From NCBI GenBank assembly GCA_029012085.1, contig JAQXLK010000248.1, forward strand, positions 1 through 43,496: DNA of 43,496 nucleotides. The letters are read 5' to 3'. Position 1 is the stretch's first letter; every line of letters starts with the position of its first letter. Both the position numbers and the translations under genes were made by a program. Source of the DNA: Clostridiales bacterium. GTDB taxonomy: Bacteria; Bacillota; Clostridia; Lachnospirales; Lachnospiraceae. Positions 1,564-9,414 of the stretch are shown here, one piece after another. The notes beneath the pieces are model-generated. The model worked only from the letters and a program-made list of their open reading frames with translations. It made no database searches and had not been told where the DNA came from.

Positions 1564-1764
1564 TTATTTCTTCTTTTTTTCCAACTCGCGATATGCAGCT
1601 TGCTGACCTTTTGCATAACCATAAGCATAAATACCTGTTCCAATTGCAACAACTCCTGAAGCTATCCCTGCAATTGCAGCAATAGTTCCTAAAACACCAC
1701 CTTCCGTTTCAAGTGATTCTTCCATAGACAAATCTAAAAATTCATTTGTTTCTCCTAAATTCAT
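1564..1764 (-). CDS. double-glycine-leader bacteriocin-like peptide A (66 aa)
   Basis: This 66-residue precursor starts at ATG 1764; a good AAGGAGGG ribosome site precedes it, and a longer TTG-started reading is less likely because it would include that site. Residues 1-23 form an acidic leader ending LSMEESLETEGG, a standard Gly-Gly processing site of class II bacteriocins exported by peptidase-ABC transporters. The predicted 43-residue mature peptide is very rich in Gly, Ala and Ile with small-residue spacing, then a Tyr/Gly stretch and a basic tail ending EKKKK. No processing transporter lies in the window. It is the second gene of a pair with peptide B, suggesting a two-peptide class IIb bacteriocin. 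The bacteriocin role is inferred; an intercellular signal is the alternative. Confidence 0.75.
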   Translation of the reverse strand: MNLGETNEFLDLSMEESLETEGGVLGTIAAIAGIASGVVAIGTGIYAYGYAKGQQAAYRELEKKKK

Positions 1765-1785
1765 AATATACCCTCCTTTCAAACT

Positions 1786-1962
1786 CTAACAACCATATTT
1801 AACAGAGTTTTTTCCATTCTCGTAACCTAATTCATACAGATATTTTGTAAACTTATATGAAGTGTAAGTGCTTAATACAAGCATTCCTATCACACCGCCT
1901 TCAACATCTCGCATTTCCTCTTGAGAAATTTCATTAAAATCATTGCTTAGTTTCATTTCCAT
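1786..1962 (-). CDS. double-glycine-leader bacteriocin-like peptide B (58 aa)
   Basis: The start at ATG 1962 is chosen because GAAAGGAAGGTG sits just upstream; the reading could extend further 5' but without a ribosome site. Residues 1-23 form a leader ending ISQEEMRDVEGG, a Gly-Gly cleavage site. The predicted mature part is 35 residues, begins VIGMLVLSTYTSY, and ends with a single Cys. Its C-terminal half has the pattern Y-x-x-x-Y-x-x-G, like peptide A, which supports a paired two-component peptide. The two genes are about 20 nt apart and presumably share one transcript starting upstream in the conserved element at 1999-2095. No immunity gene is obvious next to it. Confidence 0.75.
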   Translation of the reverse strand: MEMKLSNDFNEISQEEMRDVEGGVIGMLVLSTYTSYKFTKYLYELGYENGKNSVKYGC

Positions 1963-1998
1963 TTTAAACACCTTCCTTTCGTTTTCCTTTACACCCAT

Positions 1999-2095
1999 CT
2001 GAAAAAGTGATATACTCTACCTAGGTACTTTTTCATAAGTGCTTAACAGTTTGGGGATTCTGAGAGTTTGCGCATATTTTTCAGAATCCTCTTTT
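1999..2095 (-). promoter_or_regulatory. conserved upstream element of the peptide genes (copy A)
   Basis: This stretch upstream of peptide B recurs almost unchanged at 8891-8985 upstream of another secreted-protein gene. It contains a GAAAAAGT/ACTTTTTC inverted repeat enclosing the palindrome ACCTAGGT and a minus-strand TATATC that may serve as -10, and a second hairpin, GGATTCTGA (2055-2063) with TCAGAATCC (2081-2089). No -35 is convincing, so activation by a regulator is likely. The conservation is seen; the promoter role is inference. Confidence 0.55.
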
Positions 2096-2147
2096 TATAT
2101 ATAACAGTCTGTATCAAATTACAGAACTGAAATATATCATCGTTATA

Positions 2148-2219
2148 CTACCCCAATAACAATCTAAATAATTCTCCAAGACCCCAGCCATAATTATTAA
2201 TCATACTAAAAAAAATCAT
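2148..2219 (-). CDS. short peptide ORF (23 aa), candidate signal or leaderless peptide
   Basis: The ATG at 2219 is preceded by AAGGAGGG and encodes 23 residues, beginning MIFFSMINNYGWG and ending LFRLLLG, then TAG. The peptide is hydrophobic with aromatic and glycine residues, has no cysteine for an Agr-type thiolactone, no Gly-Gly leader and no typical signal peptide. Its position is telling: directly after the GHKL kinase gene, behind a 20-bp-period direct repeat, and before two bacteriocin-like genes, which is where inducing peptides of LytTR-controlled bacteriocin loci sit. Function as a pheromone is inference. A leaderless bacteriocin is the alternative, and untranslated sequence cannot be excluded. 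Confidence 0.45.
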   Translation of the reverse strand: MIFFSMINNYGWGLGELFRLLLG

Positions 2220-2265
2220 AGTCGTATGCCCTCCTTTCGACAGGAAGATAGCACATACGACTATG
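2217..2265. repeat. perfect 12-bp inverted repeat around the short-peptide start
   Basis: CATAGTCGTATG (2217-2228) and CATACGACTATG (2254-2265) are exact inverted copies 25 nt apart. The near arm contains the start codon of the 23-residue peptide; the loop holds the ribosome site and a minus-strand TATCTT (2245-2250) that could be the -10. It could be an operator, or, if transcribed from further upstream, an RNA hairpin masking the start. Confidence 0.6.
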
Positions 2266-2278
2266 AACAACAACCCCC

Positions 2279-2314
2279 TAACCCAACATTCGGTTCTTTA
2301 ACCCAACATTCGGT
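2279..2314 (-). promoter_or_regulatory. tandem direct repeat, candidate LytTR regulator boxes (copy A)
   Basis: TAACCCAACATTCGGT occurs at 2279-2294 and again at 2299-2314, a period of 20 bp, ending at the stop codon of the sensor kinase. On the minus strand the boxes lie just upstream of where a -35 for the short peptide would be, and no good -35 is present. LytTR/AgrA-type regulators are known to bind two direct repeats about two helical turns apart, so these are the best candidate sites for the neighbouring response regulator. The pattern is repeated at 9066-9101. Confidence 0.55.
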
Positions 2315-3342
2315 CAATTTTCGTTACAAATTGGCAGAATCACCTCACAACAGAATTCTTTTTCTTTGATATCATAATGGATTCTCCCATTATTTCTCTC
2401 CACCGCCTTCTCCACATTTTGCAATCCCATCCCATGGTTTGCCTTGTCTTCTTTTGATGTTTGCAGTTTTCCAGCTTTATTCAGACACAATTTTTCCTCA
2501 TTCATTGGATTTACAATAGATATCTGTACATACTTCCCTCCCTTTATAATATTAATTTCCAAATAATACGGCGGCGTTTCCACTCCCCGAACAGCCTCCA
2601 CTGCATTCTTAATAATATTGGAAAAAATCATGCACTGTTCCATGTCTGATACATCAATTTGACAATAATCTTCACATTTTATTTTTACTTCTGTATCTTG
2701 CGGCAGACGAACAGCGTAATGATTAAGTAGTATATCAAAAATCTCAATTCCAGTATGATAACTAAGGCTCTTGATTTTCCCCAAATACGTATTCATTTCT
2801 TTTATATACTCTTTCACACCCTCCAAGTCATTATCGCTAACAAGACCATTCAGGCAGACCAGATGCCCATTTAAATCATGACGGTATTTCTTTGTCTCTG
2901 CTTCCTTTTCCAATAACACTTCATAGTACTTCTTCTGAAATTCCTGCATCTGTTTTTCCATAACCAGCATCTGTTCCATCGTTTCGTTACTTTTCTTGAC
3001 ATAAAGAATCATCACCACAAAAATTCCTATACTAATCATAGCCATAAAGCTGAGACCTTTCCCCACTACACGATATCGCAGGTCACTATATTTTTCAATC
3101 AATACATTGATACTCACAATCAGACACAGAATCTCAAATGCCAGAAAAAACAGCAGAGGTATCATACTTTTCCTTAAAAATGATGCAAATTTCAAATTAA
3201 AAAATGTTTCCTTATATCTGGAATATATGCCTGCAATCAGTATTATCACAAATGTATTCACCGCATACCCAAACAAATATAACCACTCTTCTGATATCCG
3301 GATACCACACAATTCTACAACCGTTTTCACAATCATAGTCAT
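2314..3342 (-). CDS. GHKL sensor histidine kinase, 3' part of a frameshifted gene
   Basis: This 342-residue frame contains four or five membrane segments in residues 1-115, a coiled linker, the H-box KKYRHDLNGH with the presumed phospho-His at 155, an N-box around IFSNIIKNAVEA, and the G-box GMGLQNVEKAV. That is a complete GHKL (AgrC/LytTR-partner) catalytic core. The first ATG lacks a ribosome site, and the frame is open upstream as far as 3407, running back into the 3' end of the preceding ORF at 3390-3647. Joining the two at the A6 tract near 3393 would give a kinase of about 440 residues, close to the 430-residue GHKL kinase at 41043-42335. It would pair with the response regulator encoded just upstream. 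Confidence 0.8.
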   Translation of the reverse strand: MTMIVKTVVELCGIRISEEWLYLFGYAVNTFVIILIAGIYSRYKETFFNLKFASFLRKSMIPLLFFLAFEILCLIVSINVLIEKYSDLRYRVVGKGLSFMAMISIGIFVVMILYVKKSNETMEQMLVMEKQMQEFQKKYYEVLLEKEAETKKYRHDLNGHLVCLNGLVSDNDLEGVKEYIKEMNTYLGKIKSLSYHTGIEIFDILLNHYAVRLPQDTEVKIKCEDYCQIDVSDMEQCMIFSNIIKNAVEAVRGVETPPYYLEINIIKGGKYVQISIVNPMNEEKLCLNKAGKLQTSKEDKANHGMGLQNVEKAVERNNGRIHYDIKEKEFCCEVILPICNEN

Positions 3343-3389
3343 TAATTCATCTAAGTACGTCAGAATAATTAACCTTACAAATATCCATC

Positions 3390-3647
3390 TTATTTTTTCG
3401 TATTCTCAGTTGATATCACAAAAAAACAAACCACATTAGCCAACAGCCATCCCATTACTCCAATCTTATCCATAAGCAGTTGGCTGGATTGCACATCATT
3501 TAAACATACAAAAACCCCAAAGCCAGCATAACAAAGCACACGCAGCCATTTTCTTTTTAATTTTCCACCAAACAATGCTGTGAATCCAATCATTAGGTAT
3601 GCTAATTCCAAACCAAATTGTAAGAATAATACGATCTTTTCTTCCAT
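3390..3647 (-). CDS. N-terminal membrane part of the GHKL sensor kinase (frameshifted)
   Basis: An 85-residue frame with three hydrophobic segments, starting 4 nt after the response regulator, with its AGGTGA ribosome site overlapping that gene's stop. It ends in ENTKK then TAA within AAAAAATAA. One extra A in the A6 run continues the reading as IRWIFVRLIILTYL and on into the kinase frame. The sequence RWIF at this point is also present at the same position of the second GHKL kinase of the window. I therefore read it as the sensor domain of the same kinase, broken by a one-base indel, and not as an independent small protein. Confidence 0.7.
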   Translation of the reverse strand: MEEKIVLFLQFGLELAYLMIGFTALFGGKLKRKWLRVLCYAGFGVFVCLNDVQSSQLLMDKIGVMGWLLANVVCFFVISTENTKK

Positions 3648-3651
3648 TTTT

Positions 3652-4347
3652 TCACCTGTATTTTAAATCAAATCTTATATATGCGTCTTCAAACTCTTTC
3701 CTTTGTCTTCTGGAAAGTGGAATCTTTATCTTCCCTACAAACACCTCATCTGCCTTTATCTCTTTTACCCATAATAAATTCACAATATAACTCTTATGAA
3801 CTTTAAAAAACATTTCCTCATCCAATATCTCTTCTAACTGCTTTAACGAGATGTCTTTCCGGTACACACATCCGTCCACCATCATCTCAACATATCCTCT
3901 AAATGAGGCAATATAGTGAATATCCCTCTGCCGGAACCAATAAGATTTACGATTACGGTACATTTCTATCTCCGCATATCCAATTAAATTCTCTGTATAT
4001 GCCTTAATGGCATCCTTCACTTCTTCTTCATCAAATGGCTTTGAAATAAAACGCAATGGGTGAATCCGATAGGTTTCCTTAAAACGGTCCTCCCTGCTGG
4101 AAGCTACTACAATTTTGCATTCCGGATTTTCTGCCTCAATTTCCCTGCCAACCTCCATGCCATCCATATCCGGCATATCCATATCCAGGAAAACCAATCC
4201 AAATCGGTCAATCTCTTTCAATAAATCTCTTCCTGATGTAAAATATTCTACTTCACCCGTTATCCTCTGTTCTTCCAATACTTTATATATTACAGACACC
4301 AATTCTTTGCAAATCAGCTCCTCATCATCACATATTCCAAGAATCAT
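3652..4347 (-). CDS. LytTR-family (AgrA-like) response regulator
   Basis: The 231-residue protein starts at ATG 4347 (MILGICDDEE), preferred over an ATG six codons upstream because GAAGGAAG is well placed before it. The receiver domain shows the acid pair D7/D8 and the phospho-acceptor D55 in VFLDMDMPDMDG. Residues from about 130 onward are a LytTR DNA-binding domain with FFKVHKSYIVNL and PLSRRQRKEFE. It is the first gene of an operon with the split GHKL kinase. LytTR regulators commonly control bacteriocin or virulence peptide loci, and the direct repeats at 2279-2314 are plausible targets. Confidence 0.9.
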   Translation of the reverse strand: MILGICDDEELICKELVSVIYKVLEEQRITGEVEYFTSGRDLLKEIDRFGLVFLDMDMPDMDGMEVGREIEAENPECKIVVASSREDRFKETYRIHPLRFISKPFDEEEVKDAIKAYTENLIGYAEIEMYRNRKSYWFRQRDIHYIASFRGYVEMMVDGCVYRKDISLKQLEEILDEEMFFKVHKSYIVNLLWVKEIKADEVFVGKIKIPLSRRQRKEFEDAYIRFDLKYR

Positions 4348-4462
4348 TTTTTCTTCCTTCTCCATCCTTCCAGTCTCCCCCAGTCTTCTGCTGTACCTCT
4401 ATATCTCTTGAACTTTTAGGTTCCCGTTCTTTTCATTTACTTTCTCATTGCAGTCTTTTTCC

Positions 4463-6402: not shown

Positions 6403-6974
6403 TGGCTGAAACAAAGAATATTATGATTGTTGGTGTAGGTGGACAGGGAACCCTGCTTACCAGCCGTATCCTTGGCGGTATCATGGTAAAGGGCGGCTAC
6501 GACGTGAAGCTTTCCGAGGTACATGGTATGTCACAGCGTGGCGGTTCTGTTGTTACTTATGTACGTTACGGTGAGAAGGTTGCAGAACCGATTGTAGAAG
6601 AAGGTCAGGCAGACGTATTAATTGCCTTTGAGCGTTTAGAAGCTCTCCGCTATGCACACTTCTTAAAGCCGGATGGAGCTTTGATTGTGAACGACCACAG
6701 AATGGATCCAATCACAGTTGTAACCGGTGCAGCTGAGTATCCGGAAAATATAATTGAAAACCTTTCTAAGACCTATAAGGTATATTCCATCAACGCGGCA
6801 GAGGAAGCCTTAAAGCTTGGCAACTCCCGTGTATTTAACAACATCGTGTTAGGCCTTGCAGCCCAGCACATGGACTTTACCAAAGAGGAGTGGTTAGAGG
6901 TAATCGCCAATACGGTTCCACCAAAGACTGTTGAGATTAACCAGAAGGCATTCCTTGTGGGGTATGAGAGTTAG
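6402..6974 (+). CDS. iorB: indolepyruvate:ferredoxin oxidoreductase, beta subunit
   Basis: This 190-residue subunit carries the gamma-type domain of 2-oxoacid:ferredoxin oxidoreductases. It shows the hallmark IMIVGVGGQGTLLTSRI at the N-terminus and SEVHGMSQRGGSVVTYVR. The length is typical for IorB. It starts on the last base of the iorA stop and is followed by a strong terminator, so iorAB is a two-gene operon. The last codons and the terminator are duplicated as a scar at 9260-9414. Confidence 0.95.
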   Translation: MAETKNIMIVGVGGQGTLLTSRILGGIMVKGGYDVKLSEVHGMSQRGGSVVTYVRYGEKVAEPIVEEGQADVLIAFERLEALRYAHFLKPDGALIVNDHRMDPITVVTGAAEYPENIIENLSKTYKVYSINAAEEALKLGNSRVFNNIVLGLAAQHMDFTKEEWLEVIANTVPPKTVEINQKAFLVGYES

Positions 6975-7094
6975 ACAATAGGAAAAAACTGGCGGAGTGT
7001 TTTATATAAGACACTCCGCCAGTTTTTTTATAATCTGTTGCATTTTCCGCTAAATGATTCTAAAAATAAATTTTCCTCATTTGTTTAAATTTCT
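6943..7094. repeat. duplicated segment, intact copy (iorB 3' end, terminator, orphan-gene 3' end)
   Basis: About 150 bp, from the last ten codons of iorB through its terminator and the last twelve codons of the opposing 98-residue gene, match 9260-9414 with scattered substitutions and small indels. Both copies keep the same order and orientation. Confidence 0.85.
6983..7029 (+). terminator. rho-independent terminator of iorAB
   Basis: ACTGGCGGAGTGT and ACACTCCGCCAGT pair around a 10-nt loop, flanked by A6 and T7. It is therefore likely to work in both directions and also to end the converging minus-strand operon. Confidence 0.92.
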
Positions 7095-7356: not shown

Positions 7357-7996
7357 GAATATTTTCCTTTCTTTTATCACTAACCATTTGCATTGGTGCT
7401 AGATAAGAGTTTCCGCTATACATATTGACACCATTTCCAACTAAGAAAATTTTATTTGTCCTATATTTAACATCAATTTCCTTATATTCAACTTTAAATC
7501 CGCTTCCAACACCTATTACATTAGAATATTGTGCAGGATAATCCACTGTATTGAATAAATTATTATAACTCGCATAAATGGTAACTTCATCTTGATGTTC
7601 TTCAATCCATGCTTCCAGAGTTTCTGAATAATAACCACTACTCAAGCTTATACACACGCAATCAATCTTATTTTCTATCATCCAATTCAATCCTTCTATA
7701 AGTGCCTCTGTAGTAATACTACTATTTTGCTGTGCATCATAATATGCGATTTTAACATTACTATCATATTTTTCTAAAAAATTTAAGATAAAGTCACCAT
7801 GTTATTTTTCTTCTTCCGTTGTTAAATTTACAGTATTTAAAATATTATTGTGACTTAAAGCTAAATTTCCATCAATAATTCCTAATATTATCTGAGACTC
7901 ATTATTTTTTGATGGAAAGATAATAATATATGTAAGAAACACTCCAACTATTATTAGCGAAAGTGAAGTAAAGAATATAAAAATTATTTTTCTCAT
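7343..7996 (-). pseudogene. compact membrane-anchored subtilase-like (S8) protein, interrupted by an in-frame TAA
   Basis: One frame runs from ATG 7996 to 7343 and is broken only by TAA at 7802-7804. Before the stop come a membrane segment (residues about 4-27) and ILGIIDGNLALSH, like the S8 aspartate motif. Directly after the stop is HGDFILNFLEK, like the S8 histidine motif. Further on come YPAQYSNVIGVGS, a classic subtilase stretch, and YSGNSYLAPM in place of the GTSMAxP serine motif. Total length would be about 216 residues, short for S8. Its ATG overlaps the stop of the upstream gene (ATGA), so it was co-translated with the toxin-like protein. A C-to-T change in a CAA codon would explain the stop. 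Some active-site context is already unusual, so an inactive relative is possible. Confidence 0.7.
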
Positions 7997-8859
7997 ATTG
8001 TGCCTACAATAGGTGCACCATAAAATGAATGAAACCCACCTGTATGGAGTACATGACCCCTCGTATTTGCTTTATGATAATGCCACAAGTATACATGTCC
8101 TTTGTATCTCTTAGCATCTATCTCTGGTAACGAGCAGAGAAATCCAGCCTGTGCAATTACTGCACTAGCCATAACTGACGAAAAAGAATATACCGAAAGA
8201 TTACTCTTGACTCTACCTATCGCTTTTGACTTAGATATTCCTTTTGGTGATACAACTACTTGACCATTCCATACTGCTGCTTTGTAATAATATTTTTTTA
8301 CTTTTTTTCTTTTCGTAGCAGAGGCAGCTTCTACCTTAGAATAGAATTCTGTCACAACAATATACAAAACCCCTGCAATTACCACAGCCAACAATGCCTC
8401 TAGTAACGCTTCCAACACCATTCCTAACGATATAACAACTCCCCCTGCAGAAATTGCAACTTGTCCCACGTATGTATCTTCTATAATTTCATCAACGGAA
8501 GAAATATCTTCTACTTTATCCCCCTCTTCATAAACAGCAATATCAACGTCATCAGACGTGAACTCATCCATTTCTAATTCGTACTCCTCTGAATCTACAA
8601 CGTCTTCATCATTTCGGATTTCTAATTCTCCAAACCCATTTTCATCAACCAATAGAAATGCATCACTAATATCAGTATGACCTTCAACCTCAATTTGAAA
8701 ATCATCATTAATAGAAACATTAAATTCAACACCATCAATATATACCGTTTTCTCATTTTCTCCTAGTATAGTTTCAGCGTTAACATTCGTTCCAAAAACA
8801 TTACATAAAATAGTTGCAACTAAAATTATACTTAACATCTTATTTAACTTTTTTATCAT
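7993..8859 (-). CDS. secreted toxin-like protein with His-rich C-terminus
   Basis: The 288-residue protein has a signal peptide (residues 1 to about 28, ending NVNAE), an acidic extracellular region (about 30-130) and a long small-residue hydrophobic stretch (about 130-170). A basic segment containing KRKKVKKYYYK follows, then a C-terminal domain with YLWHYHKANTRGH and FHSFYGAPI. The closing histidine-rich block resembles what I recall of SAR2788-type putative toxins of Gram-positives; that match is from memory and needs a search. It heads a translationally coupled operon with a subtilase-like gene and a 98-residue orphan, behind a control region copied from the bacteriocin-peptide locus, which supports a role in competition. 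Function is inferred. Confidence 0.65.
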   Translation of the reverse strand: MIKKLNKMLSIILVATILCNVFGTNVNAETILGENEKTVYIDGVEFNVSINDDFQIEVEGHTDISDAFLLVDENGFGELEIRNDEDVVDSEEYELEMDEFTSDDVDIAVYEEGDKVEDISSVDEIIEDTYVGQVAISAGGVVISLGMVLEALLEALLAVVIAGVLYIVVTEFYSKVEAASATKRKKVKKYYYKAAVWNGQVVVSPKGISKSKAIGRVKSNLSVYSFSSVMASAVIAQAGFLCSLPEIDAKRYKGHVYLWHYHKANTRGHVLHTGGFHSFYGAPIVGTI

Positions 8860-8890
8860 ATTATTCTCCTCAAATAAAATTTACACTATT

Positions 8891-8985
8891 CTGAAAAAGC
8901 ACTATACTTCACCTAGGTACTTTTTCATAAGTGCTTATTACTTTGGGAATTCTGAGAGTTTGCGCATATCATTTCAGAATCCTCT
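8891..8985 (-). promoter_or_regulatory. conserved upstream element (copy B)
   Basis: This is the counterpart of 1999-2095, about 30 nt upstream of the toxin-like gene. It keeps the GAAAAAG/CTTTTTC inverted repeat, ACCTAGGT, a minus-strand TATAGT and the TTCTGA/TCAGAA hairpin. The same arrangement before two unrelated secreted products points to shared regulation. Confidence 0.55.
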
Positions 8986-8995
8986 TTATATAAAA

Positions 8996-9023
8996 CAGTC
9001 TGATTGAAGCTTGAGACTGTTTT
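8996..9023 (-). terminator. small hairpin between repeat boxes and the conserved element
   Basis: On the minus strand AACAGTCT pairs with AGACTGTT, followed by TTATATAAA. At the equivalent place in copy A an imperfect hairpin follows the short peptide. It may have ended the transcript of a signal-peptide gene now deleted from this copy. Confidence 0.4.
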
Positions 9024-9065
9024 ATATCATATCTATATCATACAAAACTATGACTAACAACTCCC

Positions 9066-9101
9066 TAACCTAACATTCGGTTCTATAACCCATCATTCGG
9101 T
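9066..9101 (-). promoter_or_regulatory. tandem direct repeat, candidate LytTR boxes (copy B)
   Basis: TAACCTAACATTCGGT (9066-9081) and TAACCCATCATTCGGT (9086-9101) repeat at 20 bp, as at 2279-2314, and again abut the 3' end of a kinase sequence. The short-peptide gene that follows the boxes in copy A is missing here; only the inverted-repeat flanks survive in part. Confidence 0.5.
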
Positions 9102-9259: not shown

Positions 9260-9414
9260 AGAAGGCATTCTTTTGGAGTATGAAAGTTAGACAATAGGAA
9301 AAAACTGGCGGAGTGTCTTCTTATGTAAGACACCTCCGCCAGTTCTTTATAATCCGTTGCATTTTCTTCTAAATGATTCTAAAAATAAATTTTCCTCATT
9401 TGTTTAAATTCCTG
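9260..9414. repeat. duplicated segment, scar copy (iorB 3' end, terminator, orphan-gene 3' end)
   Basis: It corresponds to 6943-7094 and begins with decayed iorB codons on the plus strand. The terminator follows (ACTGGCGG at 9304 to CCGCCAGT at 9343, stem intact), then the reading EFKQMRKIYF on the minus strand. The HEPN gene that follows uses a TAA lying inside this repeat as its stop codon. Confidence 0.85.

Follow-up and report, generated by a model that had tools for sequence, protein, structure and literature searches.

Three-component regulation of class II bacteriocins, of the ComCDE, BlpCHR or PlnABCD type, provides a natural point of comparison for a locus on contig JAQXLK010000248.1 of a Clostridiales bacterium of the family Lachnospiraceae (assembly GCA_029012085.1), where positions 4365 to 1564 on the minus strand carry a LytTR regulator, a GHKL kinase, a 23-codon open reading frame (ORF), a structured RNA element and genes for two Gly-Gly-leader peptides. 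The stretch was analyzed over its full length of 43,496 nucleotides (nt), to which we refer as the window. The shared features are a LytTR regulator, a GHKL-type kinase with a hydrophobic N-terminal part, tandem boxes, a peptide gene as the first target and Gly-Gly peptides, together with a C39 exporter that accompanies such a cassette elsewhere in the genome (contig C84). Two differences stand out: the inducer candidate here has 23 residues (12–23 in the curated class described below) and no Gly-Gly leader, and the gene order is regulator, kinase, peptide.

The agr system (AgrBDCA) has the same GHKL/LytTR pairing. Direct repeats upstream of the activated promoter are likewise common to both (the AgrA boxes; PMC4227749). 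In contrast to agr, the window peptide has no cysteine (among 26 curated class members, four contain one), and other GHKL genes of this genome have AgrD-like or AgrB-like genes, named by eye, next to them (L086, L087, L095). Within the cassette no AgrB-like ORF was seen by eye in the ORF list and no such family appeared in general ORF scans, no search with an AgrB model having been made. Because the locus lacks both the Gly-Gly leader peptide of three-component regulation and the cysteine of agr, we file it as what appears to be a new variant of peptide-pheromone two-component signaling.

A third comparison is offered by Rgg pheromone systems, whose receptors are cytoplasmic. PMC7018657 and PMC9426450 describe Trp-X-Trp pheromones for RtgR/RtgS and Rgg1518 of pneumococcus, with RtgR/S controlling Gly-Gly peptides and a peptidase-containing exporter. 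Both groups share short peptides with Trp-X-Trp (Trp, tryptophan) near the C terminus (here Trp lies in the last ten residues at 25 of 85 kinase loci, the window peptide not included), whereas the receptor there is an Rgg protein and here a predicted membrane GHKL kinase with its LytTR regulator; the peptides described here are also shorter and mostly without a charged N terminus. The neighbors of the window ORF are the LytTR and GHKL genes, with no Rgg-type receptor gene adjacent. Among the matches listed from the open PubMed Central (PMC) literature, judged by title and the start of the abstract, no description of the peptide class or of the RNA was found; most subscription papers and all of bioRxiv lie outside this scope, and the RNA side of the negative rests on a small part of the PMC coverage. 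PMC12345188 has no occurrence of six regulation terms, and the accessible parts of PMC13289728 and PMC8895600 hold nothing matching the peptide class or the RNA.

The reading we lean towards, with a little better than even confidence, is that the locus would be an autoinduction cassette, with a leaderless linear peptide as the pheromone of a LytTR/GHKL system.

Organization of the locus

The preliminary description had recognized, in transcription order, a LytTR regulator, a GHKL kinase, a repeat of period 20, a 23-codon ORF with a strong ribosome-binding site, a conserved element and two Gly-Gly peptides. Pfam matches and the sequence bear out these parts and their order on the minus strand, with an additional 85-amino-acid (aa) ORF between regulator and kinase:

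3652..4365, minus strand: LytTR response regulator, 237 aa (Pfam LytTR, 4.5e-17; Response_reg, 6.5e-17).
3390..3647, minus strand: 85-aa ORF, probably the membrane segment from the N terminus of the kinase, in another frame than the remainder (two hydrophobic stretches; counterpart in the kinase of sister locus C235).
2314..3342, minus strand: GHKL histidine kinase, 342-aa ORF with three hydrophobic stretches (HATPase_c_5, 4.5e-19; aligned with the C235 kinase at 35% identity).
2281..2314, minus strand: tandem box pair of period 20, predicted to be a probable LytTR operator (sequence; two pattern matches in the assembly, control 0).
2245..2273, minus strand: proposed promoter, TTGTTG, 17 bp, TATCTT (by eye from the sequence).
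2216..2266, minus strand: inverted repeat followed by eight T, a terminator-like hairpin across the proposed -10, the Shine–Dalgarno sequence (SD) and the start codon (outer stem of 13, no mismatch).
2148..2219, minus strand: 23-codon ORF MIFFSMINNYGWGLGELFRLLLG, candidate signal peptide (SD AAAGGAGG; class statistics).
2105..2129, minus strand: imperfect hairpin directly 5' of the element, outside the RNA model (inspection of sequence and fold).
1988..2103, minus strand: two-hairpin structured RNA element, model R1 (120.3 bits, 8.1e-20, for a copy used in building the model; covariation).
1786..1962, minus strand: Gly-Gly-leader peptide 1, 58 aa from the ATG at 1962 (leader ending EEMRDVEGG; weak Bacteriocin_IIc match, 0.059).
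1564..1764, minus strand: Gly-Gly-leader peptide 2, 66 aa from the ATG at 1764 (leader ending EESLETEGG).

A start at 1998 for Gly-Gly peptide 1 is unlikely, the SD standing before the ATG at 1962. The earlier view that the layout is that of LytTR/GHKL peptide regulation agrees with the Pfam matches and the tandem boxes, and the translated ORF confirms that the peptide in the inducer position has neither a Gly-Gly leader nor a cysteine. Features beyond the earlier description are the hairpin lying across the proposed promoter and the start codon, the element's identity as an RNA and how widely it occurs, a second box pair at 9101–9068 and the 85-aa ORF at 3647–3390.

A class of very short peptides behind GHKL kinases

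Recurrence of the short ORF was evaluated downstream of GHKL kinases. The genome of the window has 18 PF14501 matches at E 0.001, of which 17 are above the cut-off; a protein search of 397 family genomes with the C235 kinase gave a match at 1e-10 in 276, from which 29 further loci were taken, and 40 more came from the next rows of the match table with the own genome skipped. Statistics refer to the 85 of 87 kinase loci with at least 150 nt downstream and to ORFs of 12–26 aa that start within 400 nt after the kinase gene and are preceded by an SD of at least 5 nt. Such ORFs occur at 34 of the 85 loci, compared to a mean of 22.9 (maximum 33) in 100 sets of dinucleotide shuffles and 4 on the reverse complement. 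Requiring Trp among the last ten residues leaves 25 of 85, against a mean of 5.3 and a maximum of 12 in the 100 shuffle sets; the reverse complement yields one of 85. By group, the count is 4 of 16 in the own genome (one of these four, L100, sits by eye within a longer frame and is a false positive of the rule), 13 of 29 among the best matches and 8 of 40 among the next; with the window and C235 excluded, 24 of 83 loci qualify.

Four kinases of the own genome precede a box pair and a very short ORF, namely those of the window, C235, C84 and C225. The C84 ORF (MFLLNITDILNWLLGRH) is followed directly by a C39 peptidase exporter gene, then by Gly-Gly peptides and an HlyD-like gene; the C225 ORF (MFLTKWSFWDWLFQH) is followed by a short Gly-Gly-type ORF. 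Since other GHKL genes of this genome have AgrD-like or AgrB-like genes in the adjoining place, the position of the short ORF looks like a ligand slot.

Curation by eye after the scans, which biases Trp content upward, yielded 28 loci with a GHKL gene upstream in all and a LytTR gene in 27, at near-constant distance; the exception, L157, has a kinase starting near the contig end. The curated peptides have 12–23 residues. Among 26 of them (L184 and L198 excluded), 25 contain Trp, two GG and four cysteine, and Trp makes up 55 of 489 residues, figures that carry the same curation bias. Some members are tentative: L184 has no standard start codon, L187 starts with TTG, and L157 and L197 start with GTG. 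Ten class peptides had no Pfam or NCBIfam match at E 10, and the window peptide had no family match at 0.1 in Pfam/NCBIfam-type scans. The expectation that the ORF is conserved near GHKL/LytTR genes thus holds in part: position, length class, SD and a mostly Trp-rich C-terminal half recur, whereas the precise sequence varies, and Trp is absent from the last ten residues of the window peptide. On this pattern, the 23-residue ORF looks like a member of a recurring class of very short, mostly Trp-rich, signal-like peptides in gut Lachnospiraceae. Among 196 genomes, a class-level search at E 1e-22 recovered the own genome alone and missed the five others of the same family in that set, including G261 with its cassette L127, and is hence uninformative on spread outside the family. 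Two further loci, L163 and L108, show a direct repeat and an SD with, by eye, no standard start codon (L163) or a 7-codon ORF only (L108); they are possibly decayed or very short members.

A hairpin over the proposed promoter and the start codon

The inverted repeat at 2266–2216, with eight T after it, has a folding energy of -27.6 kcal/mol compared to -10.9 kcal/mol in shuffles (z -7.4), and pairs both the SD and the AUG of the short ORF. At C235 the hairpin differs in sequence and has the same shape, with a stem of 14 and one mismatch; ORF position, SD and hairpin agree between the two loci. A similar hairpin lies at most 170 nt before the ORF start, or over it, at 10 of 27 curated loci, some of these being weak (stem of 8), against a mean of 0.7 and a maximum of 2 in 20 shuffle sets. 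Both in the window and at C235 the proposed -10 falls, as we read the sequence, between the hairpin arms, and therefore the full hairpin would occur only in read-through transcripts.

The box pair and a likely second target site

The boxes of the window resemble the LytTR consensus, less closely than those of C235 do, and the pair is a probable LytTR operator. With up to three mismatches, the pattern has two matches in the assembly searched (3,687,524 bases, or 3.69 Mb; 91.6% complete), at 2314–2282 and 9101–9069, both inside the window, and the reversed pattern has none. The nearer box core is centered ~52 bases before the start site proposed by eye; in PMC4227749, promoter-proximal AgrA repeats are centered near -60. 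Pairs found by an automatic box detector were also compared with the presence of a Trp-bearing ORF across the kinase loci (table 13/11/12/49, Fisher p 0.003). The second match defines a further site:

9068..9101, minus strand: second box pair of the same type (pattern match and sequence).
8880..8996, minus strand: second copy of the RNA element (107.5 bits, for a copy also used for the model).
7993..8859, minus strand: 288-aa ORF carrying a signal-like stretch at the N terminus, likely a second target of these boxes (weak family matches only).

The promoter layout of the window locus is repeated here, by eye, at 9032–9060, and both box-pair sites of the assembly precede exported products. No short ORF was seen in the sequence ahead of this second element copy (8996–8880).

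A structured leader RNA

The conserved element is a structured 5'-leader RNA with covariation. It was detected by DNA search in 13 of 299 family genomes, some matches being short and weak, and by a covariance model built from 12 copies in 14 of 397, the own genome included in both counts; the own genome has it in three places, two of them within the window. An exact core pattern occurs in 29 stretches of an 84,980-species collection, assigned to Lachnospiraceae, Lachnospira, Agathobacter, Acetatifactor, uncultured Eubacteriales or Clostridiales, and one strain, Lactobacillus rogosae ATCC 27753, which we presume to be misnamed; viral contigs contain no exact match to the core. In an alignment not fitted to the model, two-sided changes occur in 6 of 20 pairs. 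Among 45 distinct fitted rows, in an alignment biased toward the structure, they occur in 16 of 25 pairs (shuffled mean 10.4) with 94.2% of cells paired; none of 500 shuffles reaches any of the five measures observed, and the top five column pairs by covariation all belong to stems. The covariation ranking (top 40 column pairs) lends no support to a pseudoknot joining the two loops, and no clear expression platform was seen. A coding interpretation was rejected in favor of RNA: the window copy reads MKKYLGRVYHFFRWV, but in the sequences as read by eye stop codons interrupt this frame in the second window copy, L027 and L028, and L024 and L026 lack an ATG.

The element matches no Rfam family (window and C235 copies at E up to 1, other copies at gathering scores). 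Behind a c-di-GMP-I riboswitch (RF01051; cyclic di-GMP) on the same strand stand 12 of the 45 distinct copies, L074 at ~550 nt and the others within ~275 nt; nine follow a tight direct repeat within 400 nt, so that about half have one or the other, and 24 have neither by these rules, one copy having less than 150 nt upstream. By a rough rule with known errors, the first gene after the element is of signal-peptide or Gly-Gly type in 39 of 45 copies (the 39 include the radical-SAM gene of C235), other in two and absent in four.

Sister locus and kinase frame break

On contig C235 of the same genome, the order is LytTR, GHKL, box pair, a 22-aa ORF (MTFLGIQLYGSLLETFFAWIAG), the element, two radical-SAM or SPASM genes and an ATP-binding cassette (ABC) transporter ORF, the last named by eye. 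Because a single 433-aa kinase here occupies the place of the 85-aa ORF and 342-aa kinase, and the alignment shows its N-terminal part to be absent from the latter, the window kinase is, from this comparison, interrupted by a frame break that is either real or an assembly error. The kinase adjoining the C225 short ORF (L105, 4616–3299) is likewise split, which hints at assembly errors or frame variation among these kinases. No solved structure matched the C235 kinase at 0.01, and the 11 solved-structure matches listed for the LytTR regulator cover the receiver domain only.

Proposed mechanism

In the mechanism we infer, a very short leaderless peptide gene would be the first gene behind the regulator's own operator, with exported-peptide target genes after it. 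Once translated, the 23-residue product is most likely released from the cell or located at the membrane, and the kinase would sense it. The phosphorylated LytTR protein would then bind the box pair and activate the short peptide's gene along with the two Gly-Gly peptides and the presumably secreted 288-aa protein (8859–7993), closing an autoinduction loop. The hairpin probably terminates or silences transcripts reading through from the kinase gene, since these have both arms, which hides the SD and AUG; a transcript from the activated promoter would start within the hairpin, at the proposed site, without the left arm, and the peptide would then be made only upon activation. The two-hairpin RNA would be a separate 5'-leader module ahead of exported-product genes in many Lachnospiraceae, probably acting on the mRNA through stability, translation or antitermination.

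In favor of this reading we count the Trp-bearing ORF class, the gene order shared by the curated loci, the two box pairs before exported products, the ligand-like slot, the codon differences between the L185 and L198 ORFs given below, the hairpins and the covariation of the RNA. Exporters speak for it as well: a C39 match over most of the query lies downstream at four of the 28 curated loci (L104, which is the query itself, L187, L190 and L191), L195 has a match up to the end of the available stretch, and L182, L183 and L184 have part matches. The match in L184 (G308:C13) is fragmented with one piece on the opposite strand, an inversion or misassembly.

Several observations weigh against the autoinduction reading. 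The kinase is broken in the present assembly, and no exporter gene was seen beside the window locus. SD-preceded ORFs exceed shuffles only moderately when Trp is disregarded, the curated Trp content is inflated by the selection itself, and the window peptide is a divergent member of its class, with Trp at residue 12 and thus outside the last-ten rule. The box detector, which by eye overlooks pairs starting within the kinase gene, found pairs at only 13 of 25 Trp-ORF loci. At most curated loci a scripted scan of the available stretch, which is short for some, turned up no C39 exporter and no Gly-Gly peptide. Finally, co-divergence of peptide and kinase sensor was considered and dropped: the similarities were not significantly correlated (Mantel r 0.107, p 0.076, 23 loci, with the window, L105, L157 and L198 not entered and L190 dropped by the script), nor were they given the catalytic part (r 0.113, p 0.066).

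Alternative explanations

The strongest alternative, in our view unlikely but deserving serious attention, is that the short peptide is a small membrane-bound protein binding to the kinase from within the cell, as a feedback or specificity factor. Its hydrophobic, Trp-rich and leaderless character would suit this role, as would the lack of an exporter in the available stretch of most curated loci. Strong sequence divergence at a fixed position is better suited to a ligand, however, as are the AgrD-like or AgrB-like genes seen by eye beside other GHKL kinases.

Somewhat less probable is that the peptide is an effector, a leaderless bacteriocin or small membrane toxin, while the kinase senses something else. 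The Trp-rich hydrophobic sequence fits such a function, and Gly-Gly peptide genes come after it at some loci; yet 12–23 residues is very short for an effector, and the short peptide also stands ahead of operons in which Gly-Gly peptides are already encoded (window, L104, L187, L190, L195). Cargo is variable where kinase adjacency is constant.

We regard it as quite improbable that the ORF is a leader peptide, controlling the RNA element and genes downstream by being translated and not through its product. In the window and at C235, the ORF does lie between a predicted activated promoter and structured RNA, with the hairpin overlapping the ORF start. Element and ORF are mostly apart, however: among 45 distinct element copies and 28 curated cassettes, the two are directly adjacent only in these two loci (at G210:C62 the element follows ~2 kb after the short ORF), and at C84 the ORF directly precedes the exporter gene.

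That the ORF is a chance reading frame is the least credible explanation, for which speak the many SD-preceded short ORFs in shuffles and the window peptide falling outside the Trp rule, but against which stand the Trp-bearing subset (25 loci, at most 12 in any shuffle set), the agreement of position, SD and hairpin at the window and C235, and three synonymous versus one non-synonymous codon difference between the L185 and L198 ORFs (kinases 60 and 73; one close pair and a small sample).

Other features of the window

A Peptidase family S41 ORF (1340–3, minus strand; Pfam 6.6e-9) lies 3' of the Gly-Gly peptides and reaches the contig end. A second GHKL gene (43054–41043, minus strand) adjoins, by eye, a LytTR-like ORF and is followed by a weaker direct repeat (L094) and, again by eye, a lipoprotein-like ORF, with no short Trp-bearing ORF called. 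A long hairpin at 6973–7038, 3' of ferredoxin oxidoreductase-like genes, is probably a terminator, with a similar hairpin near 9340–9300; its weak matches to microRNA families are chance-like.

Implications for Lachnospiraceae

Lachnospiraceae are dominant gut anaerobes. We tentatively propose, as a possibility held with less confidence than the reading of the locus itself, that they possess a further class of GHKL/LytTR quorum-sensing ligands: unprocessed linear, mostly Trp-rich peptides of 12–23 residues, expressed from a self-insulating promoter inside the terminator hairpin of the regulator operon, with exported-peptide regulons sharing a new class of 5'-leader RNA that also stands behind c-di-GMP riboswitches. 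Each member of the peptide class lies beside its likely receptor, and the class amounts to a list of synthetic peptides that could be tested directly. In many genomes the RNA element flags genes for exported peptides; it is a candidate for a new kind of regulatory RNA, and its structure can be tested. If the proposal is true, density and c-di-GMP signals would feed one RNA-controlled secretion program in these bacteria.

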